A stretch of 64,000 nt of DNA from Rhodovulum sulfidophilum DSM 1374 (lineage in GTDB: Bacteria > Pseudomonadota > Alphaproteobacteria > Rhodobacterales > Rhodobacteraceae), in contig NZ_CP015418.1 of the NCBI RefSeq assembly GCF_001633165.1, forward strand, positions 1,034,501 to 1,098,500, written 5' to 3'. Below are positions 43,979-61,290 of the stretch, one piece after another (positions within the stretch are counted from its first letter, which is position 1; each line of letters starts with the position of its first letter). The notes under the pieces were generated by a model, which was not told the DNA's origin, searched no databases, and was given only the letters and a program-made list of their open reading frames with translations. Made by a program: the position numbers and the translations under genes.

Positions 43979-44000
43979 GAAGCAACAGGAGCGCAACGAG

Positions 44001-45044: not shown

Positions 45045-45045
45045 G

Positions 45046-46050: not shown

Positions 46051-46868
46051 GCCCGAATGACAGCCAGCATATCTTGTCGGGGCGGGGCGAGCGCGCGGTG
46101 ACCAAGCCCGTGATCCTGGTCCATTACCATGTCTACAAGAATGCGGGCAGCAGCGTCGATCTGGCGAACCGCGCGGCGGTCGGCGCCGCCAATTTCATCG
46201 AACTGGACAAGCATCGCGGGTTTCGCAAGGCGCCCGCCTTCAACGCGGCGCTGGTCCGCCAGGTCCTGCGCGCCCATCCCGGCATGCGCTGCTTTTCCTG
46301 TCACAACTTCGTTCCGACCGTGCACAGATGTCCCGATTTCACCGCCCTGCCGATCGTGTTCCTGCGCCATCCGCTGTTGCGGCTGGCCTCGGTCTACCGC
46401 TTCGAGGCGATTTCGGAGGCCCACAAGCATACGCCCGCCGGCAGACTGGCGCAAAAGGTGGACTTTCCGGAATGGCTGGAGGCGTTCCTCCATATGCCCA
46501 ACGGCAAGAACTACCAGACCTGCGTTCTGTCGAGGACGGAAGATGGCGGGCACAGCCCCTTCACCAACGATCATCCCCGCCATATCGGCGATATCCGCGT
46601 CGCCGCCGAGCGGCTCGACGAGGTGAACGCGTTGACCGGCGTCGGCATCGTCGAGGATTTCGAGGCCTCGGCCGCCCGGATCGAGGCGAAGGTGGTGCGC
46701 CACATGCCCGGCTTCCGGCTGTCCGGCGCGGCGGCCAACCAGACCAAGAAGATCGGGAACTGGCGAGAGGAACTGGCCGCGCTCGAACGCTCGCTTCCGG
46801 CCGATCTGCTGGCCCGCACGGTGATGGCCAACGCCTCGGATTACGCGCTTTACGACCGCTACCGCTGA
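46047..46868 (+). CDS. Sulfotransferase-like protein
   Basis: 273 residues. VILVHYHVYKNAGSSVDLANR is a variant of the HIPKTAGSS 5'-phosphosulfate loop, and LPIVFLRHPLLRLASVYRFEA the 3'-phosphate loop. The GTG start at 46047 overlaps the previous stop and has GGGGAG eight bases upstream; a GTG at 46098 is an alternative. The overall GC content is back to the level of the locus. Probably sulfates the same glycan as its neighbours. Confidence 0.72.
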   Translation: MSPNDSQHILSGRGERAVTKPVILVHYHVYKNAGSSVDLANRAAVGAANFIELDKHRGFRKAPAFNAALVRQVLRAHPGMRCFSCHNFVPTVHRCPDFTALPIVFLRHPLLRLASVYRFEAISEAHKHTPAGRLAQKVDFPEWLEAFLHMPNGKNYQTCVLSRTEDGGHSPFTNDHPRHIGDIRVAAERLDEVNALTGVGIVEDFEASAARIEAKVVRHMPGFRLSGAAANQTKKIGNWREELAALERSLPADLLARTVMANASDYALYDRYR

Positions 46869-46913
46869 TCTTTCCCCACCGCCGCAACGGCGCCTTTTGG
46901 AGCATTGGATGAG

Positions 46914-47690
46914 ATGACAGATCTGGCAGACACCCTTGCGGACGAGATGACGGCGCGGCTGAAGGACGACGTGCTCTTCATCGAGACGGACCGTTCGGTC
47001 GAGGAGACCGAGGCCTTCTGCACCCGCCACGCGCCCTGGCGGTCGGTCTACCGGTTTTCGAACGGGGTCACGACCGAAAGCTTCCCGCGCTCCGAGCACG
47101 TGCCCAATCCGCGCTGCCTGGCCAAGCTGCGCCGGTTCCACGCCCGGATCGACCTGTCCCGTTTCGCCGGCAAGCGGGTGCTCGATCTGGGGTTCAACGA
47201 GGGCTACCAATCCATCTTCATGGCGAAATACCTGGGCTGCCAGGTCGACGGGATCGAGGCCTACCAGGTTGCGGTCGACCGGACCTCGGCCATCGCCGAA
47301 TTCTGCGGCGCGCCCTGCAATTTCTGGGTCGCGGATGCCAACAGCTTCGTCGCCCCCGAAACCTATGACGTCATCCTGCATTGCGGCCTTCTCTACCACC
47401 TGCACGATGTCTGGAGCGCGGTGAAGAACACCTGCCGGTCGCTGAAGCCCGGCGGCGAGGTGCTGCTGGAGACGACGTCCTACGAGGGCGCCGACAAGTT
47501 CGACTGCAAGTTCATGAACTGGCACGCCAAGGGCAACCACAATTACTGGGCGCTGAGCCCCGAGACGATCCGTTACCTGTTCGCCGAGTTCGGCTGTACC
47601 GAGGGCCGGGAGGTCGACAGTTTCGAGGTCGGCGCGCTTGCCGGAACCGGCATGAAGCGCACCATGATGTGGTTCCGGAAACCGGCATGA
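46914..47690 (+). CDS. Class I SAM-dependent methyltransferase
   Basis: 258 residues. FAGKRVLDLGFNEGYQSIFMAKYLGCQVDGIEAY holds the SAM loop (DLGFNEG in place of the usual DxGxGxG), then TYDVILHCGLLYHLHDVWSAVKNTCRSLKPGGEVLLETT. The pattern resembles CmoB-like/DUF1698 methyltransferases, here probably acting on a sugar. The ATG at 46914 is preferred to a TTG three codons earlier because GGAG lies 11 bases before it. The stop overlaps the next start (ATGA). Confidence 0.82.
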   Translation: MTDLADTLADEMTARLKDDVLFIETDRSVEETEAFCTRHAPWRSVYRFSNGVTTESFPRSEHVPNPRCLAKLRRFHARIDLSRFAGKRVLDLGFNEGYQSIFMAKYLGCQVDGIEAYQVAVDRTSAIAEFCGAPCNFWVADANSFVAPETYDVILHCGLLYHLHDVWSAVKNTCRSLKPGGEVLLETTSYEGADKFDCKFMNWHAKGNHNYWALSPETIRYLFAEFGCTEGREVDSFEVGALAGTGMKRTMMWFRKPA

Positions 47691-48691
47691 TCCGGCGCCT
47701 GATCCTCCATATCGGGCGGCACAAGACCGGCACCTCGGCGGTGCAGCGCTATCTGGCCGACCACCGCGCGGCCTATGCCGCCGAGGGCATCGTCGTGCCC
47801 GATCTCGGCGGTGACGAGCGGCCCGATGCCGAGCCCGCCGACCGTGCCGCCCACCACCGGATCGCGCTGGATTGCGGGACCGGCCCCGTGGCGGAGGCCC
47901 GGCGCCGCGCCGAGGCCGCCGATGGCTGGCGGGCGCGGCTGGCCGCGGCGGCCGAGGGCGGACATACCCTGGTGCTGAGCAGCGAGGCGTTCCAGAACTG
48001 CGGCGATTTCGCGGCGCTCCGCGCGCTCTGCCGCGATCATTACGTCGAGGCGGTCTGCTACCTGCGCGAATATCTCGACTATGCGCTCAGCGCCTATGCC
48101 CAGGAGGTCAAGAAGGTCGGGCTTTACGCGGGCTTCTTCGAGTTCGAGCGGGGCTTCGACCCGCAGCTCGGGCGCTTCGTCGCGCGGTGGGAGGAATTCG
48201 CCAATCGCTGCAACTGGCGGCTTTACGACCGCACCCTGCTGGCCGAGGGCGACGTGGTGCAGGATTTCCTGGCCACCGCCGGTCTGCCCGATTTCGGCGG
48301 CGACCGGTTCCAGAGCGAGAATCCCCGGCTGGGCGGAAGCCTGCTCGGCTTCAAGCTGATGGCAAATGGCGCGGGGCTGCATTCGCTGCGGCTTGCCCGT
48401 GCGCTCGAACCGCTGGCCGCCGCCCGGTCCGACTTCCGCGCGCCCTGGCGGATCGAGCCCGGGCGGCAGGCGCAGCTGCGCGCCGGGCGCAACTATAACG
48501 CGGCGCTCGAAGGGCTGGTGGGCGAGGTCCGGCTGGCCGATGTCGCGACCGGAACGCTGCCCTTCGAAAGCCCCGGATTCGCCGCCGACCTGACCGGGAT
48601 CCTCGCCGCGCTCGAGGGCTTCCCGGCCCTGCGCGCCCATCCGCTTTTCGCCGTTTGCCAGGAGGCCGGCCCTTGTCCGATCCCCCCCTGA
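47687..48691 (+). CDS. P-loop sulfotransferase-like protein (paralogue B)
   Basis: 334 residues. LILHIGRHKTGTSAVQRYLADHRAAYAAEG is the P-loop, with VLSSEAFQNCGDF, VEAVCYLREYLDYALSAYAQEVKKVG and LGGSLLGFKLMANGAGLHSL shared with the protein at 45046-46050. Unlike that copy it has the high GC and codon use of the locus, so the two copies have different histories or one has been recoded over time. Starts at the ATG overlapping the methyltransferase stop. Confidence 0.78.
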   Translation: MIRRLILHIGRHKTGTSAVQRYLADHRAAYAAEGIVVPDLGGDERPDAEPADRAAHHRIALDCGTGPVAEARRRAEAADGWRARLAAAAEGGHTLVLSSEAFQNCGDFAALRALCRDHYVEAVCYLREYLDYALSAYAQEVKKVGLYAGFFEFERGFDPQLGRFVARWEEFANRCNWRLYDRTLLAEGDVVQDFLATAGLPDFGGDRFQSENPRLGGSLLGFKLMANGAGLHSLRLARALEPLAAARSDFRAPWRIEPGRQAQLRAGRNYNAALEGLVGEVRLADVATGTLPFESPGFAADLTGILAALEGFPALRAHPLFAVCQEAGPCPIPP

Positions 48692-49722
48692 CCACCCGTG
48701 CCCGTGCCCCGCTGCGCCTCGGTCTCGCCGGCGGTGGCACCGACCTGTCGCCCTATTGCGACCTCTATGGCGGGGCGGTCCTGAACGCCACGATCAACCG
48801 CTTCGCCTTCGCCTCGATCGAGGCCCGCGCCGATGGCCGCATCGCCTTCATCGCCAACGATCTTGGGCTTTCGGAAAGCTTCGACCGCGACGACGATCTG
48901 TCCGGGGCGCGGCTTGCGCTCCATCGCGCGGTCTATGAACGGATGGTGGCCGAGTTCAACGACGGCCGCCGCTTCGGCGCCACGATCCAGACCAATGTCG
49001 AGGCGCCCGCGGGGTCGGGGCTCGGGTCCTCCTCGGCGCTGGTGGTGGTGCTGGTCGATGCCTTCCGCGCCCATCTTTCAGCCCCGCTCGGCCAGTATGA
49101 CGTGGCGCATCTGGCCTATGAGATAGAACGCATCGATCTGGGTCTCGCGGGCGGCAAGCAGGACCAGTATGCCGCGGCCTTCGGCGGGGTGAACTTCATC
49201 GAGTTCCTGGCGGGCGACCGGGTGATCGTGAACCCGCTGCGCATTCCGCGCGATATCCTCAACGAGCTGGAAAGCCGTCTGGTGACCTGCTTTTCGGGGG
49301 TGTCGCGCCATTCCGCCGACATCATCGAGCGTCAGACCGCCAGCGTGCAGAAATCGGACCGGGCCGCGGTCGAGGCGATGCACAGCCTGAAATCCGACAG
49401 CATCGAGATGAAGCGGTCGCTGATGACCGGCGATTTCGACGGGCTGGCGGAGATCCTGAACCATTCCTGGATTGCCAAGAAGGCGACCGCCAAGACCGTC
49501 TCCTCGCCTCATATCGAAGAGATGTTCGCCCATGCGCTGGCCCATGGCGCCGAGGCGGGCAAGGTTTCGGGCGCGGGCGGCGGCGGGTTCATGTTCTTCC
49601 TCGTCGATCCGCCGCGCCGCCATGGCCTGATCGCGGCCTTGCGCGAGATCGGCGGCGATGCCGATCCGGTCGTCTTCACCAGGGCCGGCTGCCAGAGCTG
49701 GCAGATGCCATGCCGACGCTGA
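48673..49722 (+). CDS. hddA: GHMP-family D-glycero-D-manno-heptose 7-phosphate kinase (HddA-like)
   Basis: 349 residues from a TTG start. RAPLRLGLAGGGTDLSPYCDLYGGAVLNATINRFAF is the diagnostic N-terminus of HddA kinases; the GHMP ATP loop is PAGSGLGSSSALVVVLVD and the C-terminal loop KVSGAGGGGFMFF. It would phosphorylate heptose 7-phosphate at O-1 on the way to GDP-heptose. An ATG six codons upstream (48655) lacks a ribosome-binding site, while CAGGAGG sits eight bases before the TTG. The gene overlaps the sulfotransferase before it and the nucleotidyltransferase after it. Confidence 0.87.
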   Translation: MSDPPLTTRARAPLRLGLAGGGTDLSPYCDLYGGAVLNATINRFAFASIEARADGRIAFIANDLGLSESFDRDDDLSGARLALHRAVYERMVAEFNDGRRFGATIQTNVEAPAGSGLGSSSALVVVLVDAFRAHLSAPLGQYDVAHLAYEIERIDLGLAGGKQDQYAAAFGGVNFIEFLAGDRVIVNPLRIPRDILNELESRLVTCFSGVSRHSADIIERQTASVQKSDRAAVEAMHSLKSDSIEMKRSLMTGDFDGLAEILNHSWIAKKATAKTVSSPHIEEMFAHALAHGAEAGKVSGAGGGGFMFFLVDPPRRHGLIAALREIGGDADPVVFTRAGCQSWQMPCRR

Positions 49723-50963
49723 CCGCCCCCTTGCCGCGTCAGGCGGCGATCCTCTGTGGCGGGCTCGGCACCCGGCTCGGGCCGCTGACCGCGCAGTGCC
49801 CCAAGCCCCTTCTGCCGGTCGGCGATACGCCCTTCCTGTCGGTGCTGATCGCCGAGCTGGCGCGGCAGGGGATCGAACGGGTGCTGCTGCTGGCGGCCTT
49901 CGAGGCCGACCGGATCGAGGACTTCGCCCGCGACCTGCCCCGCCGCCTGCCCCGCCCGGTCGGGATAGAGGTCGCGCGCGAGGCTCGGCCGGCGGGGACC
50001 TCGGGGGCGCTCTGGCAGGCCCGCGACCGGCTGGAGGACCGGTTCCTGATGCTGAACGGCGACAGCTGGTTCGACATCCTGCTGGCCGATCTGGCCGCCG
50101 CGCAGGCCGCCCGTCCGGGGCTTTTGGGCGCGCTGGCGCTGCGCCGGGTGCCGGAGGCGGACCGCTACGGCACCGTCAGGCTCGAGGACGGGCTGCTGCG
50201 CGCCTTCGAGCCGCGCGGTGCCGGGAGGGGCGCCAAGACCGGTCCTGTGCTGATCAATGGCGGCGTCTATTGCTTCTCGCGCGGGATCGTCGATCACCTG
50301 GTCGAGGACGGTTCGCTCGAGGCCGAGGTACTGCCGCGGCTTGCCGCCGACGGGCGGCTGGCCGGGATCGAGCGGGCGGGGTTCTTCCTCGATATCGGCG
50401 TGCCCGGGGATTTCGAGGCGGCGCAGAGCCTCGTTCCGGCCCAAAGGCGGCGTCCGGCCATCGTCTTCGACCGCGACGGGGTGCTCAATCTCGACCACGG
50501 CCATGTCGGGCATCCCGACCGGCTCGACTGGACCGAAGGCGCCATCGCCGCCGTGCGCCGGGTCAACGAGGCCGGCTGGTACGCCTTCGTCGCCACCAAC
50601 CAGGCGGGCATCGCCAAGGGCTATTACAGCGAGGCTGACTATCTGGCGCTGCGCGCGCAGATGTATCGCGACCTCGCCGCGGCGGGCGCCCATATCGATG
50701 ACGAGCGCCACTGTCCGACCCATCCCGACGGCACCGTGCCCGCGCTCGCCGTGCGTTCGGACCGGCGCAAGCCCGGCCCCGGCATGCTCCTGGAACTGAA
50801 GGCGCGCTGGCCGGTCGACTGGTCCCGCAGCGCGATGATCGGCGACAAGGACAGCGACATGCGGGCGGCGGCGGCGGCCGGGCTCGACGGCATCCTGTTC
50901 ACCGGCGGCAATCTCGACCTGCTGGTCGAGCAGGTGCTGCAGAGCCGAGGAGGCGCCCCATGA
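49710..50963 (+). CDS. Heptose-phosphate guanylyltransferase fused to GmhB-type phosphatase (HddC-GmhB)
   Basis: 417 residues, two domains. Residues 1-240 form a nucleotidyltransferase (AAILCGGLGTRLGPLTAQCPKPLLPVGDTPFL, FLMLNGDSWFDI). Residues from about 245 are a HAD histidinol-phosphatase-type domain (AIVFDRDGVLNLDHGHVG, FVATNQAGIAKGYY, RKPGPGMLLELKARW, AMIGDKDSDMRAAAAAG). Together they would do the dephosphorylation and GDP-transfer steps of heptose activation. The GmhB zinc loop is degraded: CPTHPDG keeps the first Cys and His but the CxCRKP part is SDRRKP. Starts 13 bases inside hddA. Confidence 0.85.
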   Translation: MPTLTAPLPRQAAILCGGLGTRLGPLTAQCPKPLLPVGDTPFLSVLIAELARQGIERVLLLAAFEADRIEDFARDLPRRLPRPVGIEVAREARPAGTSGALWQARDRLEDRFLMLNGDSWFDILLADLAAAQAARPGLLGALALRRVPEADRYGTVRLEDGLLRAFEPRGAGRGAKTGPVLINGGVYCFSRGIVDHLVEDGSLEAEVLPRLAADGRLAGIERAGFFLDIGVPGDFEAAQSLVPAQRRRPAIVFDRDGVLNLDHGHVGHPDRLDWTEGAIAAVRRVNEAGWYAFVATNQAGIAKGYYSEADYLALRAQMYRDLAAAGAHIDDERHCPTHPDGTVPALAVRSDRRKPGPGMLLELKARWPVDWSRSAMIGDKDSDMRAAAAAGLDGILFTGGNLDLLVEQVLQSRGGAP

Positions 50964-52207
50964 CCCCGCCGACCGAGACCCCTGCCTCCGGGTCGGCGCG
51001 CTCCGCGGTGCCGTTCGAGGTAGGCTCGGCCCCCGTGGCGGCGCCGCTGGCCGCCTTCCGCGACTGGATCGAGACACGGGCGCTGCCGTTTCAGGCGCAG
51101 GCGGTGCGCGACCCGGCCGGGGGCTTTCACGAACGCATCGCGCCCGACGGGCACCCGGTCGCGATGCCGCGCCGGGCCCGCGTCGCCGCGCGCCAGCTTT
51201 ACGCCTTCTCGCGGCTTGCGGGGCTCGGGCTCGGTGACACTGTCGGCCCGGGGCTGGCCGGGCATGCCCGCGACATGCTGCTTGGCGCCCATATCCGGCC
51301 CGACGGGCGGATCGTGCCGCTGGCGGGCGGGCCGGAGGGGTATGATCTCTATGACATCGCCTTCTGTCTTTTCGCGCTGGCGGCCGCGCCCGAGGCGGTG
51401 CTGCCCCGCGCCGGGGCCTGCGCGCTGGCGGCGCAGATCCTGACCCGGCTCGAAGCCGGCTGGCGGCATCCCGAGATGGGCTTCGAGGAGGCCATGCCGC
51501 GCCGCCTGCCGCTTCGGTCAAACCCGCATATGCATCTCTTCGAGGCCAGTCTCGAATGGCTGGCGACCGGGCCCTGCGACCCCCGTTTCGAGGCGCTGGC
51601 AGACGAGATCGCCGGACTTTGCCTGGCGCGCTTCCTCGACCCCGCGACCGGCGCGCTGCGCGAGCTTTTCGACGGCGACTGGCAGATCGCGCCCGGTGCC
51701 GAGAATGCGGTCGAGCCGGGGCATCAATATGAATGGGGCTGGCTCCTGCTGCGCTGGGGCGTGCTGCGCGACCGGGCCGAGGCCCGGAGGGCGGGGCTTG
51801 GGCTGATCGATCTGGCCGAGGCGCGGGGGCTGAATGCCGACGGGCTTGCCGCGAGCCTGCTCGACCCGGCGCTGGCGATGGCGGACCCGACCGCCCGGCT
51901 CTGGCCGCAGACCGAGCGGATCAAGGCCTGGGCGCTGCGGGCCCGGCTGGCGACCCGGCGCGCCGATGCGACCCTCACCGAGGCGAAGGCGGTCGAGGCC
52001 TGCCAGGGGCTGATGCGCTTTTTCCAGCATCCGCTGCGCGGCAGCTGGTGGGAGAACCTCGCGGAGGGCGGCGCGCCGCGCCGGGAGCCGGCGCGCACCA
52101 GCAGCCTTTATCACATCGTCGGAGCCTATCACGAACTGGCGGCGCTGGAGGCCCGCCGCTCGCTGCCCATCGCCAAGGAGGAGACCCGCGCATCATCGAC
52201 CGCCTGA
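50960..52207 (+). CDS. AGE-family epimerase/isomerase (mannose-6-phosphate isomerase-like)
   Basis: 415 residues of (alpha/alpha)6-barrel type. DPAGGFHERIAPDGHP, RRARVAARQLYAFSRLAG, GYDLYDIAFCLFALAAA, RSNPHMHLFEASLEWL and EPGHQYEWGWLLLRWG carry the His and Glu residues of the N-acylglucosamine 2-epimerase superfamily. It could isomerise a keto/aldo sugar or sugar phosphate. Since no GmhA is in the window, it might serve the first step of heptose formation, which is speculation. Four-base overlap with the preceding gene. Confidence 0.85.
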   Translation: MTPPTETPASGSARSAVPFEVGSAPVAAPLAAFRDWIETRALPFQAQAVRDPAGGFHERIAPDGHPVAMPRRARVAARQLYAFSRLAGLGLGDTVGPGLAGHARDMLLGAHIRPDGRIVPLAGGPEGYDLYDIAFCLFALAAAPEAVLPRAGACALAAQILTRLEAGWRHPEMGFEEAMPRRLPLRSNPHMHLFEASLEWLATGPCDPRFEALADEIAGLCLARFLDPATGALRELFDGDWQIAPGAENAVEPGHQYEWGWLLLRWGVLRDRAEARRAGLGLIDLAEARGLNADGLAASLLDPALAMADPTARLWPQTERIKAWALRARLATRRADATLTEAKAVEACQGLMRFFQHPLRGSWWENLAEGGAPRREPARTSSLYHIVGAYHELAALEARRSLPIAKEETRASSTA

Positions 52208-52285
52208 CCCTGCCGAGATCCCGGATCACGGGCCCGGCCGCATGTCCCGCCCCGGATGTGGCGCCCGGCCGACATTGGAAAGGAA

Positions 52286-52915
52286 ATGACCGACATGGAA
52301 GAGACCCTCGAAAGAACCGAGCTCGAGCGCCTGTTCGCCGAAGCCGGCATCGATTACGACTTCTACAGAAATAAGCAGAACCCGCAGAGCATCGCCTTCA
52401 TGGCCGAGCTGCTGCCGCTTCTGGAACGGCTTTACCCCGCCCGCTACCACAGAAAGACGGTGCTCGATGTCGGCGCGCGGACCGGGTCGGGCAGCGCCTT
52501 GCTGGCGACGATGCTGGACCCCGCGAGCTATGCGCGGCTGAAATGTACGGTGACCGCGCTGGATATCGACGCGAGGATGGCCAGGATCTCGCATGCCCTG
52601 CGCCCCGAGATGGAATACCTCGTCGCCGACATCTTCGAGATCGACGACCGGCAATGGGACATCGTCATCTGTTCGCATTGCATCGAACATGTGCCCGAAC
52701 CCGAACCCTTCCTGACGCAGCTGCGCCGTCTGGCGCGCGAGCATGTGGTGATCTCGACCCCGTTCCGGGAGAATCCCGAGACCCGGATCCCGGCGCATCT
52801 GCACAGCTTCGACGAGACCTTCCTCGACGCGGTGGGGGCAGAGAACATCACGATCTACAATGGCTTTCACTGGCCGCATTCCGAGATCGTGACATTTTCC
52901 CTGCCGCCGCTCTGA
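52286..52915 (+). CDS. SAM-dependent methyltransferase
   Basis: About 209 residues. KTVLDVGARTGSGSALLATML is the SAM loop, then TALDIDARMARISHAL, WDIVICSHCIEHVPEPEPFLTQLRRL. Typical small class I methyltransferase. ATG at 52286 or at 52295 (MEETLERTELERL); the ribosome-binding site AAAGGA fits the second spacing better, while the first keeps more sequence. Sits in the glycan operon after the AGE gene; a sugar hydroxyl is the likely acceptor. Confidence 0.82.
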   Translation: MTDMEETLERTELERLFAEAGIDYDFYRNKQNPQSIAFMAELLPLLERLYPARYHRKTVLDVGARTGSGSALLATMLDPASYARLKCTVTALDIDARMARISHALRPEMEYLVADIFEIDDRQWDIVICSHCIEHVPEPEPFLTQLRRLAREHVVISTPFRENPETRIPAHLHSFDETFLDAVGAENITIYNGFHWPHSEIVTFSLPPL

Positions 52916-52950
52916 CCCCGGACCGGACCCGAACCGCAAGGAAGACCCGC

Positions 52951-53643
52951 ATGCAGGACGACATCTACCGTTTCGGCAACGGCGTCCGGGTCTTCCGGCG
53001 CCATGTGCTCGACCATCAGGTCAACCGCTATGTGAAGGCGCAGGCGGGCAATCTGCACGAGCCGGTCGAGGAACACTGGTTCCGGACGCTCTTGGGCGGG
53101 ATCGCGGCCCCCGACCCGCTGGTCTACGATATCGGCGGCGGCATCGGCTATTACACGCTTCTGCTCTTGCGCGACCGGCCCGGGGCCGAGGCCGTGGTCT
53201 TCGAGCCGCTGCCCGAACATGCCGCCGCGATCCGCGAGAACCTGGCACTGAACGGGATCGCACCCGACCGGCTGCGGCTGATCGAGGCCGCCGCCCATGT
53301 CGACGAGGGCGAGGTCTGCTTCGAGGCGGCCGATTTCTCGTCCCATGTCGCGGCGGAGGGGGCCCTGCGGGTCGCGGCCCATGACATCGCGGCAATGCTT
53401 GCGGCCGAGGCCCGGCCGGTCGATCTGGCCAAGCTCGACGTGCAGGGGGCCGAACTGGCACTCTTGCGGCGGATCGTCGAGGCCGGGCTGGCCGAGCGGG
53501 TGCGGCGCTGGATCGTCGGCACCCATGGCGACGATCTCTTCGCCGAGTGCCGCGCGCTTCTGGACCGGCACTGGCGCGTGGTCCATAGCGACCCGGCCCC
53601 CGCGCATCAGCCCGACGGGCTGATCGTGGCGGTGCGGGACTGA
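52951..53643 (+). CDS. FkbM-family methyltransferase
   Basis: 230 residues. PLVYDIGGGIGYYTLLLLRDRPGAEAVVFEPLPEHAAAIRENLALNGI and VDLAKLDVQGAELALLRRI are the FkbM motifs. FkbM enzymes O-methylate sugars or natural products. Start 52951 has AAGGAAG upstream. Last gene of the rightward operon, converging on the carbamoyltransferase gene 15 bp away. Confidence 0.9.
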   Translation: MQDDIYRFGNGVRVFRRHVLDHQVNRYVKAQAGNLHEPVEEHWFRTLLGGIAAPDPLVYDIGGGIGYYTLLLLRDRPGAEAVVFEPLPEHAAAIRENLALNGIAPDRLRLIEAAAHVDEGEVCFEAADFSSHVAAEGALRVAAHDIAAMLAAEARPVDLAKLDVQGAELALLRRIVEAGLAERVRRWIVGTHGDDLFAECRALLDRHWRVVHSDPAPAHQPDGLIVAVRD

Positions 53644-53661
53644 GCCTGGGGCCAAGGCTCA
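53641..53661. terminator. Short hairpin between the convergent operons
   Basis: Seven-base perfect stem TGAGCCT/AGGCTCA with a GGGGCCA loop. It begins at the FkbM stop codon and ends at the carbamoyltransferase stop, so it may end both transcripts. No T run. Confidence 0.45.
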
Positions 53662-55344
53662 GGAGGGCACGGGCTTCTCGATCAGGATGTCCTCGATCAG
53701 GACCGCGTCGAGCCCGGTGGTCGCCAGCATCCCCAGCGCGTCCTCGACCGAATGCAGGATCGGCTTGCCCATGATGTTGAAGCTGGTGTTCAGAACCACC
53801 GGCACGCCGGTCTTGTGCCCGAAGGCCGCGACCAGATCGGCCATCCAGGGCGCGCTGTCGGGGCCCACCGTCTGCACCCGCCCGGTGCCGTCGTCATGCA
53901 CGACGGCGGGCACCCGGTCGCGGACGCCGTGCCGCCAGGGCAGCGTCATCGACATGTAGGGCGAGGGCTGCGGCCGCTCGAACCACTCGGCCAGATCGGC
54001 CTCGGCCAGAACCGGGGCGAAGGGTCGGTAGGGCTCGCGCCCCTTCACCCGGGCATTGATCGCGTCCTTCATGTCCCCGGGCCTCGGATCGGCCAGGATC
54101 GAGCGGTTGCCAAGCGCACGCGGCCCGAATTCGGCCCGGCCGCGCATCACGCCGAGGATGCGGCCCCGTGCCAGCAGCCCGGCCGCCGCCTCGGCCGAGC
54201 GCCCGGCGAGATCGGTCACCGCATGGCCCGCTGCGGCGGTATGGCGGGCGGTTTCCAGGGTCTTTGCGCGCGGCGCCGATCCGAGGAAGGCCGAGCCGCC
54301 GCCGAAAGGAATGCGCGTGGCCCCGGTATCGGTCATCCAGGCCAGAAGGGCGGCGCCGATGGCATTGCCGTCATCGGCCGGGCAGGGCGGCACGAAGACG
54401 CTTTCGAACCCCGTGCGGCCCGCGATGGTGCCGTTATAGGACGAATTCAGCGCGCAGCCGCCCGACAGGATCAAAGCCGGGCCGTCCTCTGCGATGGCCG
54501 CCAGCACCTGATCGGCCCAAAACGCATAGGCGGCCTGCCCGGCCGCGGCCAGATCGGCGGCGTCGGTCACCGGCGCCCCGGGGGTGCGGGCCAGCGGCGC
54601 GACCGCGGCGCGGATCGCAGCGATGGCGGCCTCATCGGCAAAGCGCAGCCGCCCGTGATCGACCGCCAGCAGCCCGGTCAGGGTCTCGACCAGCGCCGGA
54701 TCGGCCCGGCCGCAGGCCGCAAGCCCCATCACCTTCCATTCCTCGCCCTCGCGCCAGTCGAAGCCGCAAAGCCCGGTGAGCCAGCCATAGAAGGTGCCAA
54801 GGCTGCCCGGCCCCCAGGACCGCCAGCCGCGCGCCAGCCGCCGCCCGGCCAGCCGGAAATGCGAGACCGCGCCGACATCGCCCTCGCCGTCGATCACCAG
54901 ACAGGCGGCCTCCTCCAGCGGCGTGAAATGGCAGGCGGCGACGGCGTGACAGAGGTGATGATCGAAGCGCATAGGCTCGGGGCTCTCGCGGGCATATCCC
55001 AGCCGCAACAGCGCGGCGCCCGCGCTGTGCTGCATGCGCGCCTGCAGGCCCTGCATCCAGAGCGTGTCGGTCGCGGGCAACAGCGCGTCATGCACCTTCA
55101 GCCCCAGATCAGCCTTGACCGAGGCCCAGCTGGTGGCGGGAACGATCCGGTCGCCGGGCCGGGCTCCCACCGCCGCCAGCGCCGAGGCGAGATGCGGCAC
55201 ATGGTCGGGCACCACGCCCCAGGCGCGCTTGTCCTGCAGGAAGCGCTCGGTCGCTTCGGCGAAGACCACGCGACCTGCCGCGTCGACCAGCGCCAGCGCC
55301 GGGTCATGGCCCGAGGTCGAGAGGCCCAGATACCAGCTGCTCAT
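53659..55344 (-). CDS. NodU/CmcH-family O-carbamoyltransferase
   Basis: 561 residues, full length. N-terminal YLGLSTSGHDPALALVDAAG, metal/substrate His cluster FDHHLCHAVAACHF (about 125-135), VIDGEGDVGA, LILSGGCALNSSYNG, and the C-terminal YrdC-like part RAEFGPRALGNRSILADPR near 405 with FNIMGKPILHS. The family makes carbamoyl-adenylate from carbamoyl phosphate and ATP and moves the carbamoyl group to a hydroxyl of a sugar or natural product. It is coupled to the ACP gene (ATGA), ending the five-gene operon. Acceptor may be the acyl product of the operon or a heptose of the adjacent locus. Confidence 0.92.
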   Translation of the reverse strand: MSSWYLGLSTSGHDPALALVDAAGRVVFAEATERFLQDKRAWGVVPDHVPHLASALAAVGARPGDRIVPATSWASVKADLGLKVHDALLPATDTLWMQGLQARMQHSAGAALLRLGYARESPEPMRFDHHLCHAVAACHFTPLEEAACLVIDGEGDVGAVSHFRLAGRRLARGWRSWGPGSLGTFYGWLTGLCGFDWREGEEWKVMGLAACGRADPALVETLTGLLAVDHGRLRFADEAAIAAIRAAVAPLARTPGAPVTDAADLAAAGQAAYAFWADQVLAAIAEDGPALILSGGCALNSSYNGTIAGRTGFESVFVPPCPADDGNAIGAALLAWMTDTGATRIPFGGGSAFLGSAPRAKTLETARHTAAAGHAVTDLAGRSAEAAAGLLARGRILGVMRGRAEFGPRALGNRSILADPRPGDMKDAINARVKGREPYRPFAPVLAEADLAEWFERPQPSPYMSMTLPWRHGVRDRVPAVVHDDGTGRVQTVGPDSAPWMADLVAAFGHKTGVPVVLNTSFNIMGKPILHSVEDALGMLATTGLDAVLIEDILIEKPVPS

Positions 55345-55604
55345 CGTGCCTTGAGGCGGGCGGTGATGTCCGAGGCAAAGCTGGCCAGCGTGTCATGTTC
55401 GAAGATCGTGGCCGGGTCGAGCTCGATCCCGAAATGGTCCTCGACCTCGCCCGACAGAAGCACCGCGTCGATGGATTGCAGCCCCAGATCGACCAGCGCC
55501 GAGTCGGGGCGGATCGCGGCCGGGTCCTGCCTGGTGAAGCGGGCGATGCCGGCGGTCAGGAAGTCGACGACTTCGGGGGCGGGGGAGGTCAGGGTCGTGG
55601 TCAC
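55341..55604 (-). CDS. Stand-alone acyl carrier protein
   Basis: 87 residues. VDLGLQSIDAVLLSGEVEDHFGIEL contains the 4'-phosphopantetheine Ser (S44), in the form DLGLQSI rather than the DLGADSL of fatty-acid-synthesis AcpP, as usual for dedicated ACPs of natural-product pathways. Overlaps the P450 gene upstream and the carbamoyltransferase gene downstream by four bases each. It would receive an acyl chain from the FAAL. No phosphopantetheinyl transferase is encoded in the window. Confidence 0.92.
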   Translation of the reverse strand: MTTTLTSPAPEVVDFLTAGIARFTRQDPAAIRPDSALVDLGLQSIDAVLLSGEVEDHFGIELDPATIFEHDTLASFASDITARLKAR

Positions 55605-57790
55605 GGTCGGTCCTTTCCTGAAGGGCCCAGCCGGCAGGGCAGCGTCGCCAGTGCGACGGTCTGGGTCATGTCGAAATAGCGATGGCGCTGGGGCCGGAGC
55701 GCCAGCCCCGGAAAGCGCGCGAACAGCGCGGGCAGGGCGGTCCGCAGCATCCGTTTGGACAGGGCCGCGCCGACGCAGCGGTGCAGCCCGTGGCCGAAGG
55801 CCAGGTTGCCGGTGCCGACGCCGCGGTCGATGGACAGCAGTTGCAGTCGCAGCGTCTCGTCAGGCCTGATCTCGATCTCGCCGATCCGGGCCGGGCCGCG
55901 CGCCATGCGATAGATGTATTTCGGCGAGGCGCATAGCGAGATCAGACCTTCCAGCTCAGCATCGATCCAGGCCGGATCGGCGGCGTCCCTTCGGTCCTCG
56001 GGCGGCAGGCTCAGCAGGTGGTGCAGGATGTTGCCCAGCGTATGCGCCATGTTGAAGCTTGCGCCATACATGACCAGCACCAGTGCCTTGAGATCCTCGG
56101 GGTCGGTTTCGGGCAGGTCCTCCTCCATCAGCCGGGTCAGGAGCGGCGTGCCGGGCAGTCCTTCGGTCGCGGGTGGGCCGAGGCCTGCGAGGATCTCGCC
56201 GATCACCTCCTGCAGGCGGTCGAGTTCTCGGATCGGCAGCCAGGGTTCCAGCACGTCCTGCAGGATCGGGGCGAGTGCGTCGAACCGCTCGGGATCGGCC
56301 GGGGCAAGACCCAGCACCGGCCCGGCGATGCCGCGAAACAACGGCTCGGCATAATCGGCGATCAGGTCTGGGGCGGGCGCACTGGCCAGCCGGGTCAGCG
56401 CGGCCCGGGTCTCGGCCTCGATCAGCGGCTGCCAGCAGGCCAGCCGGTTGCCGCCCAGGCTGTCGGCCACCGCCCGGCGGATCGCGGCATGGCGCGGCCC
56501 CGACATGAAGAACATCGCGTTGCGCGCCACCAGCCGGGCCAGCCCCAGATCGCGGCCGCTGCGTTCGGCCAGCGCGTCCAGATAGGGCTCCATCCGGGGC
56601 GGCGACCAGGTGTCGTCGTCATTGACGATGGCACGGGCCTCGTCCAGGTCGCGGATCTCGACCATCCGCCCGGTCAATCGGCGCGAGCGCGCGTCGCGGG
56701 TGACCGGCAGCGCCACGGGATATTGCACCAGCGGCGTGACGTGGAACCGCACGCCGTCGCGATGCAGCGCCAGCCGCGGAAAGCGCCGCGCCAGCGCCGG
56801 GATCGCCCGGGCGAGAAACATCCGCGACAGTGGCGCCCCGGGGCATTTATGCGGACCCGCGCCGAAGGACAGATGCGCAGACCCGTCAGGCCCCCGGCGG
56901 CGCAGCGCGGCATTGGCGCCGACCACATCCATCACCGCCGTCTCGCCCTTGTGACACGGACAGCCGCCGATCCGGGCCCCGTCCCCGGCGATCCTGACCA
57001 GGGTGAGCGTCGAGGGATAAAGCGATATCGCCCGGTCGAGCCCGGCATCGGTCCAGCCGGGCCGGGCCGCGGCCTGCCACGCCCCGAGATCGCCCAGCAG
57101 CATGCCGTGAAGCGCCAGTGCCAGAGACTGGGCCACGGTATGGCTGCCGACCAGCGCCGAGAGCGCGACATAGGGGGCGGCCTCCGGATCTGCCAGCCGG
57201 TCTGCACGGTGCCCTAGAAAGGCAGGGAAGGAGACCAGCCCGGGCTCGAGCCCCGGGACCGGCGCGGTCGAGAGATGGTCCAGAAGCTCGCCCAGCGCGG
57301 AGTCGATCCGGCCCAGCGCCTTCAGCGACAGCATCGGCCGGGTCGTCTCGTTGGCCAGCCGGATCAGGTCCAGCACCCGGTCATCGGCGCCGCCCGGGCA
57401 ACCGCAAAAGGCGCGGATGAAATCTAGAAAGGCGGCCTCGCAATAGTCGCGCATGAGGTCGGGGGAGCGGCTGGTTTCAAGGCTCGCCAGTGCGGCGGCG
57501 ATGGCGCGTTCGGCGACCGGCGTCCAGGCGGCGAGGGCGGGCGCGGCGAAGAAGGGCGCGGTGGCGCGGCGCGCGGCCAGATGGGGCTCGCCGCTCTGGA
57601 AGGCGAAGGCATGGCGCGCCATCGCCTCCAGATGCGGAAAGCGCGGGCCGCCCCGCGCCACGATCTCGTCGAGATGCGCGGTCAGCTGGCTGACGGTGAA
57701 ATGCGGGTCGCGGAGCACGGCGGCGACATCGTCGGGATCGGTCAGGAACCGGTCCGGATCGGTCCAGGCAGAGCTGTTCACGGCAGGCAT
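55601..57790 (-). CDS. Tandem (two-domain) cytochrome P450
   Basis: 729 residues from the ATG at 57790, with GGGGAG seven bases upstream; an ATG 13 codons earlier lies deeper inside the FAAL gene. It consists of two P450 modules of about 360 residues each. Domain 1 has the heme Cys in FGAGPHKCPGAPLSR (about C316) and an I-helix Thr in LVGSHTVAQ. Domain 2 has the heme Cys in LAFGHGLHRCVGAALSK (about C672) but no Thr at the equivalent I-helix site (YGASFNM). Neither has the K-helix ExxR (LDRAISLYP and LEGLISLCA stand in its place), while the later Arg of the triad is kept (LVRIA, YIYRMA). No reductase domain. Likely oxidises an ACP-bound acyl chain. Confidence 0.9.
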   Translation of the reverse strand: MPAVNSSAWTDPDRFLTDPDDVAAVLRDPHFTVSQLTAHLDEIVARGGPRFPHLEAMARHAFAFQSGEPHLAARRATAPFFAAPALAAWTPVAERAIAAALASLETSRSPDLMRDYCEAAFLDFIRAFCGCPGGADDRVLDLIRLANETTRPMLSLKALGRIDSALGELLDHLSTAPVPGLEPGLVSFPAFLGHRADRLADPEAAPYVALSALVGSHTVAQSLALALHGMLLGDLGAWQAAARPGWTDAGLDRAISLYPSTLTLVRIAGDGARIGGCPCHKGETAVMDVVGANAALRRRGPDGSAHLSFGAGPHKCPGAPLSRMFLARAIPALARRFPRLALHRDGVRFHVTPLVQYPVALPVTRDARSRRLTGRMVEIRDLDEARAIVNDDDTWSPPRMEPYLDALAERSGRDLGLARLVARNAMFFMSGPRHAAIRRAVADSLGGNRLACWQPLIEAETRAALTRLASAPAPDLIADYAEPLFRGIAGPVLGLAPADPERFDALAPILQDVLEPWLPIRELDRLQEVIGEILAGLGPPATEGLPGTPLLTRLMEEDLPETDPEDLKALVLVMYGASFNMAHTLGNILHHLLSLPPEDRRDAADPAWIDAELEGLISLCASPKYIYRMARGPARIGEIEIRPDETLRLQLLSIDRGVGTGNLAFGHGLHRCVGAALSKRMLRTALPALFARFPGLALRPQRHRYFDMTQTVALATLPCRLGPSGKDRP

Positions 57791-59430
57791 GACGCCATCT
57801 CCCCGGCCTGCCATTTGCCCGCGCGCCACAGCTCGGCCGCGGCGCGGCGGCGGATCTTGCCGCTGCTGGTGCGGGGCAGGCGGCCGCGCGGCAGGAACAG
57901 GATCCGGTCAAGCGTGAGCCCCCATTCGCCCGCGACCGCTTGGCGGATGGCACGGGCCAGTGCCTCGGCGTCGGGCGGGAGCCGGGCGGTTCGGGTCTCG
58001 GCGATCAGGACCGCGCGGTCGCTTGCCTCGGGGTCGGGCATGAAAAGGGCGGCCGCCATCGGGTTCAGCGCGGGCGAGAGGCCGCAGGCCAGCCATTCGA
58101 TCTCGGGCGCGGACAGGGTCCGGCCGTTGCAGAAGACCACATCCTTGATCCGGCCGGTGACATAAAGCGCCCCGCCCTCGATCCGCCCCAGATCGCCGCT
58201 GCGAAGCCAGCCCGGGTGGCCGTCCAGCCGGGCACCGAAACTCCCGGCGCTGTGTTGGGGCGGCCCGATATAGCCCGCCCCGACCGAGGCGCCGCATAGC
58301 CAGATCTCGCCTTCGGCGCCGTCGGGACGGCGCGCGCCGGTCTCGGGGTCGACGATGGCAAGGCCCGCGACAAGGTCGGGGGTCAATCCGCAGGGCGCGA
58401 CCCCGCCGGAACCGTCCCCGGTCCCCGGCAGCCCGGCGGCGAAAAGCGTCATCTCGGCCATCCCATAGCAGGCAAAGACCGCCTCGCGGCGGAGCCCGGC
58501 CGGGGCGAAACGGGCCCGGAAGGCGGCGGGCAGCCCGGCGGGCACGGGTTCCGCACCGATGAAGGCGCGGCGCCAGCAGGACAGATCGTAGGCCGCCGCC
58601 TGCTCGGGGCCGATACGGGAGAGGCAGTCGGAAAATGCGAAGGCCGGGCCACCGCTGAAGCCCGCACGTTCGGCCGCGATCGCCGCGATCCAGGTCGCGG
58701 GGTTGCGGATGAAGTCGAGCGGGCTCATCTGCGCCGAGACCCCGCCGCAGAGAAGCGGGTAGAGGATGCCGCCCATCAGCCCCATGTCATGGTAATGCGG
58801 CAGCCAGTTCACGAAGCGCGCGGTCTCGTCCATGCCCCAGGCGCGCGCCACCAGCGCCGCGTTGGCGAGGATGTTCTCGGGCATCACCCGCACGCCCTTC
58901 GGCAGCCGGGTCGAGCCCGAGGTGTATTGCACCACGGCGGGCGCGGCGCCCTCGGGCGCGCGGCCCGGGGCCGGGGCGGGTAGCCTGGCCGGGTCGAGCG
59001 GCAGGGTCGCGACCGGGCAGGGCGCCGGGCCGTCGAGGCAAAGCGCGGCCCGCACCGCATCCGCATGGGCGGGCAGGCACAGCAGGCCGGCCGCCCCGCT
59101 ATCGGCGGCGATATGGCGGAAGCGGTCGGAATGGCTGCCCGGGCGCGGCAGCGGCACCGGCACCAGCGTCAGCCCGGCCAGCATTCCGCCCAGCAGCGCA
59201 AGGATGAAATCGGTCCCGGTGGGCAGGGCCAGCACGAGAGTGCGCGGCGGGGGGCCGAGCCAGCCCCGGAAGGTCTCGGCCAGCGCGCCCGCCTCGGTTC
59301 CGAGCCGGGTGCCGGTGAAGACCTCGCGGCCGCCATGGCGGGTCCGGATCGCGATCTGTTCGGCAGAGGCGCGCGCCTCGAAGGCGCGAAGGAGGGCCGC
59401 GGCCAGCGGGTTTGGCGGGGGCGGGATCAC
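57778..59430 (-). CDS. Fatty-acyl-AMP ligase (FAAL)
   Basis: 550-residue adenylate-forming enzyme. P-loop VVQYTSGSTRLPKGV near residue 165, FVNWLPHYHDMGLMGGILYPLLCGG (the FAAL-type motif), YGMAEMTLF, WLRSGDLGRIEGGALYVTGRIKDVVFCNGRTLSAPEIEW and the late Lys in RTSSGKIRRRAA. The HYHDMGL and GRTLSAPEIEW forms match FAALs, which activate fatty acids as acyl-AMP and load them on an ACP rather than CoA; the ACP two genes downstream is the probable partner. Its start overlaps the radical-SAM stop (ATGA). Confidence 0.9.
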   Translation of the reverse strand: MIPPPPNPLAAALLRAFEARASAEQIAIRTRHGGREVFTGTRLGTEAGALAETFRGWLGPPPRTLVLALPTGTDFILALLGGMLAGLTLVPVPLPRPGSHSDRFRHIAADSGAAGLLCLPAHADAVRAALCLDGPAPCPVATLPLDPARLPAPAPGRAPEGAAPAVVQYTSGSTRLPKGVRVMPENILANAALVARAWGMDETARFVNWLPHYHDMGLMGGILYPLLCGGVSAQMSPLDFIRNPATWIAAIAAERAGFSGGPAFAFSDCLSRIGPEQAAAYDLSCWRRAFIGAEPVPAGLPAAFRARFAPAGLRREAVFACYGMAEMTLFAAGLPGTGDGSGGVAPCGLTPDLVAGLAIVDPETGARRPDGAEGEIWLCGASVGAGYIGPPQHSAGSFGARLDGHPGWLRSGDLGRIEGGALYVTGRIKDVVFCNGRTLSAPEIEWLACGLSPALNPMAAALFMPDPEASDRAVLIAETRTARLPPDAEALARAIRQAVAGEWGLTLDRILFLPRGRLPRTSSGKIRRRAAAELWRAGKWQAGEMASCLP

Positions 59431-60938
59431 TGGGCCGCCTCCAGCGGTGCCTCGGCCCGGTTTGCCGCCCGGGCGCAGTCCGACAGGTCAAGCGTCAGGG
59501 TCGAGGTCAGGTCATAGCCGATCTCGGGCCGCTCGGCGATCATCTCGCGGACCGCGAGGATGACCCGGCGCGTGCCCTTCTCCTTCATCATCAGCGGCAG
59601 CAGCTCGTGCAGGGGATGGCGGCGCGCGCCGGACTTGACCCAGGCGGTGCGGCCCATGTCCTGGCTTGGGGGGCCCGATGTCCTTGCATAGGCTTCGAAT
59701 CGGACCAGCGCGGCATCGGGGGCAAGGAGTGCAGCCTTCAGCCGGGCGCGGCCCTCGGCCAGCTCTTCGCGGGTGATCTGCACGGGCAGCATGTTGGTCA
59801 TCCGGGCGCCTGCGGCGCTGCCCCGGTGGGTATCGGCGTCGACGCTCCGCCCGGCGCGCTTCATCTCGGCACAAAGCGGCGTGGCATAGGGCGCGACCGG
59901 GGCGCTGACATTGAAGCCGACCACCGGCAGCGCCTGGGCGAAGGCGAATTGGCGCTTGAAACAGCCCAGATCGTCATGGTCGAAGCCTGCGATCGGCCCG
60001 CCCCGGATGGTCAGCCCCGCCGCCACCAGCTTGCGGCATTCCCCGATCAGGCCGACAGGCAGGTTCTGGCGCTTGTTTGCCTCGGCCAGTGTTGCGGGGT
60101 CGGAGGTTTCGAGCCCGACGAAGACCTGCCGCAGCCCGGCCCGGTTGCACCGCGCCAGCAGGTCGGCATCGATCGAGATCCGGGTCGAGAACTGCACCGG
60201 GTCGCGGCCCGCGCTGCCGTTCCAGCCGGTCAAGGCCTCCAGCAAGGCGCGGGTTCGCTTGCGGGAGACGGTGAAATTGTCATCGCTGAGCGAAACCTCG
60301 CGATCGCCCAGCCGGTAAAGCTGACCAGGCTCGGCCGGCACCTTCTCGGGCGGCCTGTGGCGCTGCTTGCGGCCGACATACTGGATCACGTCGCAGAAGG
60401 TGTCGTCGAACGGGCAGCCGCGGCTGGTCTGGACCACGCCCGCAATCGTCCGGTCATTGGGGTAAAGATCCCGGCGGGGCAGCGGCATGGCGGCCATATC
60501 CGCCTTGCCGCAGCGGTATTCGGGTTTCAGCGCGCCCGCCAGCAGGTCGGCGGCGACGTCCGGCGCGGCGGTCTCGCCCTCGCCGATCACCAGACAATCG
60601 GCCTGGCCGCGAAAGATCTCGGGGGCAAGCGAGACATGGGCGCCGCCCAGCACCACCGGCACGCCCCGGCGGCGGAAGGCGCGGGTCAGGTCCAGCCCGC
60701 GCGTCAGCTGCGAGACGTTGATCGACAGCCCGACCGGGTCGACCTCGGCCCCGAGATCGACCTGCTGCCCCACCTCGTCGCAGATCCGGATATCGGTTCC
60801 CCGCGGCAGCCAGGCCGCGACCGAGACGATCCCGGCAGCGGCGGATAACGTGAAGGGGGTTTTGACACCGGCCATGCTGGTTTCGGCGGCGGTGTCCGTC
60901 TTGTCGTCCGGCGCGGGCGCGATCAGGTAAATCCGCAA
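59427..60938 (-). CDS. B12-binding-domain radical-SAM-like protein with altered cluster motif
   Basis: 503 residues from a TTG start that has GGAGGGGG just upstream; the open frame continues further but no better start is seen. The N-terminal half is a cobalamin-binding-like domain (DPVGLSINVSQLTRGLDLTRAFRRRGVPVVLGGAHVSLAPEIFRGQADCLVIGEGE), without a DxHxxG. It is followed by a radical-SAM barrel (TSRGCPFDDTFCDVIQYVGRKQRHRPPEKV, SDDNFTVSRKRTRALLEAL, FVGLETSDPATLAEANKRQN). The cluster motif should be CX3CX2C, but the middle Cys is Asp (C175, D179, C182). First gene of the FAAL-P450-ACP-carbamoyltransferase operon. Possible roles are methylation or C-C rearrangement of the acyl chain, if a cluster still forms. 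Confidence 0.85.
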   Translation of the reverse strand: MRIYLIAPAPDDKTDTAAETSMAGVKTPFTLSAAAGIVSVAAWLPRGTDIRICDEVGQQVDLGAEVDPVGLSINVSQLTRGLDLTRAFRRRGVPVVLGGAHVSLAPEIFRGQADCLVIGEGETAAPDVAADLLAGALKPEYRCGKADMAAMPLPRRDLYPNDRTIAGVVQTSRGCPFDDTFCDVIQYVGRKQRHRPPEKVPAEPGQLYRLGDREVSLSDDNFTVSRKRTRALLEALTGWNGSAGRDPVQFSTRISIDADLLARCNRAGLRQVFVGLETSDPATLAEANKRQNLPVGLIGECRKLVAAGLTIRGGPIAGFDHDDLGCFKRQFAFAQALPVVGFNVSAPVAPYATPLCAEMKRAGRSVDADTHRGSAAGARMTNMLPVQITREELAEGRARLKAALLAPDAALVRFEAYARTSGPPSQDMGRTAWVKSGARRHPLHELLPLMMKEKGTRRVILAVREMIAERPEIGYDLTSTLTLDLSDCARAANRAEAPLEAAQ

Positions 60939-60982
60939 GCTGGCCCCCTCCAGCGGGCGTCTTTCTCGACGACGGCATCGAC

Positions 60983-61012
60983 ATTCTATCTGGAGTTGAC
61001 AAATATCACCAA
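60983..61012 (-). promoter_or_regulatory. Candidate promoter of the radical-SAM/FAAL/P450 operon
   Basis: On the minus strand TTGGTG (61007-61012) and TAGAAT (60983-60988) are 18 bp apart and about 45 bp before the TTG start. The -10 matches five of six consensus bases, the -35 only three. The region is A/T-richer than its neighbours. Confidence 0.4.
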
Positions 61013-61276: not shown

Positions 61277-61290
61277 TTGATGCAGATCAA
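61277..61290. promoter_or_regulatory. FNR/FnrL box upstream of the feo genes
   Basis: TTGAT-GCAG-ATCAA is a perfect match to the FNR consensus TTGAT-N4-ATCAA, 76 bp before the feoA start. FnrL is known to activate feo genes in Rhodobacter under low oxygen, when ferrous iron is available. The rest of the ~430-bp gap between the divergent operons shows no gene. Confidence 0.85.

Follow-up and report, generated by a model that had tools for sequence, protein, structure and literature searches.

A FAAL, double P450, carrier protein and carbamoyltransferase operon of Rhodovulum sulfidophilum as a candidate donor-making cassette for surface acylation

The question raised by this locus is what five tightly packed genes, with no ketosynthase, nonribosomal peptide synthetase or thioesterase gene among them, would do with an activated acyl chain. 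The locus lies in a window (the whole stretch of DNA analysed, 64,000 nucleotides) from Rhodovulum sulfidophilum DSM 1374 (contig NZ_CP015418.1, positions 1,034,501 to 1,098,500), the genome of which measures 4.35 Mb in three contigs. In the order of transcription, verified on the minus strand, the operon encodes a B12-binding/radical S-adenosylmethionine (SAM) protein, a fatty acyl-AMP ligase (FAAL), a double P450, a stand-alone acyl carrier protein (ACP) and a carbamoyltransferase of the NodU/CmcH type (Table 1). An earlier note, made from the sequence alone, had proposed that these overlapping genes form one unit built around a FAAL and its dedicated ACP, and that the product is released by transfer to another molecule, possibly the neighbouring glycan. 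Open reading frames (ORFs) together with Pfam and NCBIfam matches confirm the five genes, their strand and their domains, and the idea of release by transfer gains support from a VexE-like gene in the window, from its position in relatives and from its decay jointly with the operon. We give a probability of about one half to reading the operon as a cassette dedicated to acyl-ACP tailoring, its product being an acyl group, oxidised and probably carbamoylated, that is destined for a glycan or glycolipid of the cell surface.

The order FAAL-P450-ACP-CmcH is identical in all nine loci for which a complete P450 gene and its flanks are available, namely the window, R. visakhapatnamense (L004), R. 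kholense (L005), plasmids of Phaeobacter sp. G2 (L007) and strain SC52 (L008), and the genomes G736, G584, G890 and G1024. Two further loci fall outside this set, L014 (G608), a short contig in which P450 and CmcH are broken, and L022 (G890), which has a single-domain P450. The constant order is reason to reject a chance run of genes and, with the overlapping junctions, bears out the single unit; a set unconserved in relatives, the opposite outcome considered in the earlier note, was not what we found. The radical SAM gene lies upstream in six of the nine loci; it is not in the stretch read at L007, G584 and G1024, the remainder of those genomes not having been searched for one. Proteins of the window are 84% (P450), 71% (FAAL), 74% (radical SAM), 86% (ACP) and 90% (CmcH) identical to those of R. 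visakhapatnamense. Across the loci identity drops to about 40% for the P450 and 58% for CmcH, from which we take the gene set to be old. It is also rare: the set or its P450 was found in 1 of 385 genomes of the class sample (the window's own), 7 of 390 of the order sample, 4 of 394 of the family sample (one a fragment) and 3 of 16 genomes of the genus Rhodovulum. For at least 14 of 46 P450 relatives the longest contig is identical in length to that of one of the first 77 (P0047-P0123) of the 120 radical SAM relatives listed, which suggests linkage in further strains.

A candidate for the transferring enzyme is a tetratricopeptide repeat (TPR) protein encoded 20 kb from the operon on the same strand, adjoining KpsM/E/T-like capsule-export genes. 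It contains TPR repeats and matches the VexE model NF011721 with 51.0 bits over the whole protein and 55.7 bits over the C-terminal part, with no other NCBIfam match at E 0.1; the C-terminal parts of this protein and three relatives likewise match VexE only (38-59 bits, NCBIfam, E 0.1). VexE is ACP-dependent and uses beta-hydroxyacyl-ACP to acylate C-6 of UDP-GlcNAc for the lipid terminus of the Vi capsule, with His466 and Asp532 as catalytic pair (PMC9597891, part of the text). H611 and D675 of the window protein are invariant in all four VexE-like proteins, at a spacing of 64 residues against 66 in VexE, a comparison of spacing and not of a residue-level alignment.

Genes of this kind stand next to the operon in other genera. 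A VexE-like gene is found directly upstream of FAAL in G584 and downstream of CmcH in G890. A DltB-like membrane-bound O-acyltransferase (MBOAT) gene directly follows CmcH in SC52, G736 and G1024 and after it comes another conserved gene, for which Pfam gives no match; one or the other acyltransferase-like gene adjoins the operon in five of six non-Rhodovulum loci. The MBOAT proteins of these three relatives score 112-125 bits against DltB (TIGR04091), under its equivalog cut-off of 375, and both of those tested are over the cut-off of PF03062; a family search revealed no MBOAT in the window's own genome. The DNA downstream of the operon in SC52 (L008:20167-25567) contains two pairs made up of an MBOAT-type gene and a smaller gene after it; one of the smaller genes is annotated as an SGNH/GDSL hydrolase.

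Of 16 genomes of the genus Rhodovulum, only the three with the P450 have the VexE-like gene at full or almost full length. None of 12 others has it in full length (G007 and G011 give short, weak matches to the TPR part only), and in the remaining strain, G008, it is reduced to pieces with two stops and no C-terminal part. Taking the P450 and VexE-like counts of the order sample (390 genomes) as one sample, a VexE-like sequence is present in five of the seven P450-positive genomes and in eight of 383 others, with scores of at least 405 bits in the former and 85 bits at best in the latter. Two points weaken this association: four of the five positives seeded the profile and the gene was first noticed as an operon neighbour, so the informative figure is the low VexE-like rate elsewhere; and the carriers are kin, G736 and G1024 belonging to one genus and the three Rhodovulum to another. 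The operon-type MBOAT scores 952-977 bits in G736 and G1024 (its seeds, of one genus) and 214 bits or less in all others of a sample of 379 genomes; some MBOAT match at E 1e-10 occurs in 63 of the 379, G736 and G1024 included. A protein search with the VexE-like C-terminal part returned only two Rhodovulum proteins; as this search requires shared 5-residue words, distant relatives were judged from genomes only.

In strain G008 only radical SAM and CmcH pieces of the operon remain, about 5 kb being missing, while 15 compared capsule-export and glycan genes are kept with 75-97% protein identity and frames open over their likely coding parts. This comparison omits two glycan genes (window 46047-46868 and 46905-47690) within a 2-kb stretch; the N-terminal piece of the FkbM ORF (60%, one stop), which overlaps the preceding gene, is excluded from the identity range, and a stop at residue 18 of an 845-residue ORF precedes the likely start. 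The joint loss of operon and VexE-like gene beside retained export and glycan genes, and the adjacency of acyltransferase-like genes in the other genera, argue against a reading in which the operon makes a small diffusible lipid (an oxidised, carbamoylated fatty acid or its ester or amide) that is freed by hydrolysis or through an enzyme encoded at an unlinked locus, with the VexE-like gene serving the capsule only. In favour of such a lipid are the plasmid-borne copies in Phaeobacter G2 and SC52, and the description of FAALs mainly for polyketide and peptide natural products (PMC11837247, part of the text). So is a hypothetical protein encoded upstream of FAAL on the Phaeobacter G2 plasmid (L007:13295-14107), at the place of the radical SAM gene of others, which has a GNCQG motif and looks thioesterase-like by eye, though it has no Pfam or NCBIfam match. 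On balance we regard a diffusible product as unlikely.

The families of the operon enzymes indicate what the acyl group might be. The best NCBIfam matches of the ligase are FAAL or FAAL-bearing models, all under their cut-offs, and the protein is closest to FAALs. The carbamoyltransferase belongs to the NodU/CmcH family (PF02543, 93.9 bits; PF16861, 209.4 bits). NodU, the Nod factor carbamoyltransferase, acts on a sugar. One could imagine that the carbamoyl group goes onto a sugar, while FAAL, ACP and P450 make a separate acyl chain for the same glycan, after the logic of lipochitooligosaccharides. NodU (NF041651) is indeed the only NCBIfam model matched by the carbamoyltransferase, with 157.7 bits and so well under the equivalog cut-off of 1000, and all three operon-bearing Rhodovulum have a large glycan locus next to the operon. 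However, CmcH comes right after the ACP gene in nine of nine loci, two of them near hut and mod genes or iron-uptake genes and not near recognised glycan genes, and carbamoylation of a sugar appears to us quite improbable.

The P450 matches the P450 superfamily model (PF00067, 34.8 bits, cut-off 22.8) with an FGxGxHxC heme-ligand loop, and its AlphaFold2 (AF2) model has the P450 fold (pLDDT 89, pTM 0.89). A search restricted to lengths of 0.55 to 1.75 times the query gave 46 homologues, 41 of which have at least 700 residues. The heme-ligand cysteine is present without exception in those of the 47 sequences that have a residue there (46 of 46 for half 1, 45 of 45 for half 2). The arginine of the K-helix ExxR motif, in contrast, is found at the aligned position in only 1 of 47 first halves and 0 of 46 second halves, departing from canonical P450s. 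No Asp or Glu occurs at positions 585-600 of half 2 in 46 sequences; at position 230 of half 1, the register of which is uncertain by one residue, Asp occurs in 1 of 46, the others having mostly His or Asn, then Thr or Ser. Without the ExxR arginine and the I-helix acid-alcohol pair, the protein is best described as having a P450 fold without being a canonical P450. P450-derived glycosyltransferase helpers are not known to have the heme cysteine; such a heme-less helper was rejected because the cysteine is kept here, and the model for these activators (TIGR04515) gives 66.8 bits against a cut-off of 343.

The top structural match of the C-terminal half is P450BioI, which has been solved with acyl-ACP (PDB 3ejb, 3ejd, 3eje). 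P450BioI differs in being a single domain of about 20% identity, whereas two domains are fused here, without the ExxR arginine and mostly without the I-helix acid. A literature search on P450s without the EXXR motif yielded no report, and one on tandem or two-domain P450s no bacterial double-P450 chain in the listed titles or the openings of abstracts. The family of fused double P450s without the ExxR arginine, with its 46 homologues listed, would be a test case for what a P450 requires. In G890 a second small locus (L022:5032-9304) encodes an ACP, a class-V aminotransferase and a P450 of one domain; this P450 is 26-29% identical to both halves and may be related to the ancestor of the fused protein.

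The earlier note had expected oxidation or C-C chemistry from P450 and radical SAM protein. Apart from the P450 not being an ordinary pair, the part about the radical SAM protein is not supported in R. sulfidophilum. Its radical SAM domain (PF04055, 32.7 bits, cut-off 29.5) and B12-binding domain (PF02310, 32.7 bits, cut-off 32.1) are recognisable. Among the best 120 of 292 homologues, however, the middle cysteine of the CxxxCxxC cluster motif is missing in nine, the window protein and eight other R. sulfidophilum-type alleles, while CPxxCxxC is kept in all 111 others; three of the nine are partial proteins. Six of the eight are named R. sulfidophilum and two (P0049, P0050) are 92% identical to the window protein. 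The window has Asp (CPFDDTFC), the eight other alleles have Gly, and R. visakhapatnamense and R. kholense retain an intact motif (CPFDCTFC). Further well conserved columns are also altered in the nine. Sequencing error was rejected as the cause, as nine alleles from several sources lack the cysteine. The window protein thus appears to be a degenerate relative of B12-dependent radical SAM enzymes, and its C-C chemistry has probably been lost in R. sulfidophilum because the middle cluster cysteine is replaced by Asp or Gly. A 41%-identical relative on a Shinella sp. H4-D48 plasmid (L036:7566-9749) lies between Nif11/NHLP-type leader peptides, near peptide exporters; radical SAM proteins of this family thus also occur in peptide pathways, so nothing about the operon can be read from the family at large.

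Substitution rates follow the same pattern. The ratio of nonsynonymous to synonymous substitutions (dN/dS) of the radical SAM gene is 0.37 between window and R. visakhapatnamense and 0.10 between R. visakhapatnamense and R. kholense; the corresponding pairs are 0.36/0.22 for FAAL, 0.30/0.19 for P450, 0.34/0.18 for ACP, 0.22/0.16 for CmcH and 0.50/0.21 for the VexE-like gene. In a relative-rate test, for which columns were dropped where R. visakhapatnamense and R. kholense differ or outgroups disagree, the radical SAM protein has 21 changes on the R. sulfidophilum branch vs 4 (p = 0.0009, all outgroups agreeing; 33 vs 13, p = 0.0045 in a looser test). FAAL has 7 vs 1 (33 vs 16, p = 0.02 in the looser test), and there is no significant excess in P450 (2 vs 2), CmcH (3 vs 0) or ACP (0 vs 1). 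As judged from these comparisons, the radical SAM protein is decaying in R. sulfidophilum while P450, ACP and CmcH are kept, and FAAL may be mildly relaxed. The lost cysteine, the radical SAM and FAAL branch changes, the divergence of the VexE-like protein between species (62% identity to that of R. visakhapatnamense) and the broken operon of G008 could also mean that the whole R. sulfidophilum operon is a relic on its way out. But all five frames are open, the branches of P450, ACP and CmcH carry no significant excess, and, compared with one database protein from R. sulfidophilum, the P450 shows 98% and the VexE-like protein 97% identity, where six full-length radical SAM alleles share 91-94%. 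The VexE-like gene thus diverges rapidly between species and is conserved within R. sulfidophilum, and we think it very unlikely that the entire operon is a relic.

We return to the tailoring cassette, each chemical step of which is proposed from the family of the enzyme concerned. FAAL would activate a fatty acid and load it onto the stand-alone ACP; the two-domain P450 would oxidise the ACP-bound chain, as the structural proximity of its C-terminal half to P450BioI suggests; and the NodU/CmcH enzyme would carbamoylate the new hydroxyl. In relatives that keep it, the B12/radical SAM protein may alkylate the chain. A separate ACP-dependent acyltransferase would then move the finished acyl group onto a surface glycan or its sugar-nucleotide or glycolipid precursor. 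In Rhodovulum and two other genera this transferase would be the VexE-like TPR protein; in three other strains, the DltB-like MBOAT with its partner protein.

Several observations weigh against this reading. The VexE-like gene of Rhodovulum, although on the operon strand, is 20 kb away and outside the operon, and in Phaeobacter G2 neither acyltransferase is adjacent. The VexE scores are far under the equivalog cut-off of 1200 bits; the C-terminal part has no Pfam match over cut-off, and a PDB profile search with it gave no LPLAT-type acyltransferase, and its AF2 model is poor (block pLDDT about 20-55). With its dN/dS of 0.50 the gene evolves fastest, save FkbM, of those compared between species, and constraint on it may be weak. 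At the sequence level P450BioI is not prominent, the best phmmer match being CYP154A1 and OleP entries topping the profile search with BioI next (118.0 vs 119.2 bits). Among the examined operon flanks of G584, G890 and Phaeobacter G2 no glycan genes were recognised, not every flanking ORF having been scanned. Finally, KpsC/S-type genes occur elsewhere in the genome, and a classic capsule anchor may exist. The two matches concerned (G000:C1:1475867-1478202) are divergently oriented, of KpsC/KpsS type (PF05159), and lie about 0.4 Mb from the capsule-export genes of the window.

Comparison with known systems places the novelty in the donor-making cassette, since carrier-protein-based acyl transfer to the surface is already known. 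In the Dlt system DltA is the ligase, DltC the carrier, DltB the MBOAT and DltD a further component. SC52, G736 and G1024 resemble it in combining an adenylating ligase, its own carrier protein and a DltB-like MBOAT with a partner gene; they differ in that the ligase is a fatty acyl ligase and not one for D-Ala, and in the addition of P450, carbamoyltransferase and radical SAM protein. The carbamidocyclophane cluster, in which a FAAL is reportedly present, also has a carbamoyltransferase within an ACP-based, lipid-derived pathway. It differs in having polyketide synthase ketosynthase and acyltransferase domains and a paracyclophane as product (PMC4728517, part of the text). The Vi system shares with the window a TPR protein with a VexE-type C-terminal part, acyl-ACP use by VexE and KpsM/E/T-like export genes; unlike here, the described locus encodes only one candidate acyltransferase, and beta-hydroxyacyl-ACP, not the product of a dedicated FAAL/ACP/P450/carbamoyltransferase set, served as donor in the tests (PMC9597891, part of the text).

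A full-text literature search found no publication joining FAAL, carbamoyltransferase, radical SAM, P450 and ACP; the earlier note knew of no characterised system with this set. Titles retrieved for FAAL, carbamoyltransferase and ACP together concern sulfonyladenosine inhibitors and laxaphycins, and the titles listed for FAAL with capsule or lipid anchor, and for P450BioI, describe no such system. By term search, P450, carbamoyl, polysaccharide and capsule are absent from the main text of a 2025 FAAL review, as are polysaccharide and capsule from that of a paper comparing the R. visakhapatnamense and R. sulfidophilum genomes.

It is tempting, if still tentative, to see here a new surface-acylation system. 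In it, a custom oxidised and carbamoylated acyl group, in some lineages also alkylated by radical SAM chemistry, would be built on a dedicated ACP with a fused double P450 without the ExxR arginine; the transferase would be swapped between VexE-like and DltB-like types among lineages, and R. sulfidophilum would be losing the radical SAM step in favour of a simpler lipid variant. If so, a surface polysaccharide would be anchored or decorated with a purpose-built acyl chain in place of a housekeeping fatty acid, and the enzymes can be named. R. visakhapatnamense (cassette intact), R. sulfidophilum (one step lost) and G008 (cassette lost) would then make up a natural series for comparing the product and its role.

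Successive genes of the operon overlap by 4, 13, 4 and 4 bases. Of the three ATGA overlaps described before, the one at 55341-55344 is correct, while those at 59427-59430 and 55601-55604 read GTGA, FAAL and ACP having GTG start codons. The 13-base FAAL/P450 overlap at 57778 holds if the P450 starts at ATG 57790, as in the homologue P0001; its longest ORF begins at 57829. The radical SAM protein most likely starts at TTG 60938, as in the homologue P0047, which leaves 60939-61012 as upstream DNA. The candidate promoter placed ahead of the genes is neither supported nor excluded: a consensus scan gave no sigma-70-like site in 53500-61400 (mean of shuffles 0.3), nor a terminator in the operon region.

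Table 1. Features of the window, with positions counted from its first nucleotide.
Feature	Position	Strand	Basis
KpsM/VexB-like ABC permease	26508..27305	-	NF050053 79 bits, VexB 50 bits, both under cut-off
KpsE/VexD-like export protein	27398..28564	+	TIGR01010 233.5 bits, cut-off 437.5
KpsT/VexC-like ABC ATPase	28568..29227	+	best matches are polysaccharide-export ATPase families, under cut-off
TPR protein with VexE-like C-terminal part, 800 aa, proposed release/transfer enzyme	31077..33479	-	NF011721 (VexE) match; H611 and D675 invariant; co-occurrence, co-decay
Glycan genes: glycosyltransferase, methyltransferases, GDP-mannose dehydratase-like, GHMP kinase, nucleotidyltransferase-HAD, GlcNAc-epimerase-like, FkbM	37858..53643	+	Pfam; synteny in three other Rhodovulum
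NodU/CmcH-type O-carbamoyltransferase, 561 aa	53659..55344	-	PF02543 and PF16861 over cut-off
Stand-alone ACP, 87 aa	55341..55604	-	PF00550 52 bits; LGLQSID phosphopantetheine site in translation
Two-domain P450-fold protein, 729 aa (ORF to 57829)	55601..57790	-	homologue family; AF2 model; both heme Cys kept
FAAL, 550 aa	57778..59430	-	PF00501 159.5 bits; best NCBIfam matches are FAAL subfamilies, under their cut-offs
B12-binding/radical SAM protein, 503 aa, first gene, probably inactive here	59427..60938	-	TTG start, ORF open to 61211; PF04055 and PF02310 over cut-off; CxxxCxxC broken, fast evolution
Asp179 codon at place of middle [4Fe-4S] cysteine	60402..60404	-	GCPFDDTFC vs CPxxCxxC in 111/111 other listed homologues

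Three ORFs of the window (33565-34461, 45046-46050 and 46047-46868) contain FLHIPKTAG- or ILHIGRHKTGTTG-like stretches and look sulfotransferase-like by eye; the two that were scanned have no Pfam match. Upstream, the operon is flanked by genes that resemble feoA and feoB of iron uptake by eye (window 61337-64000), the DNA of which is 94% identical in G008.

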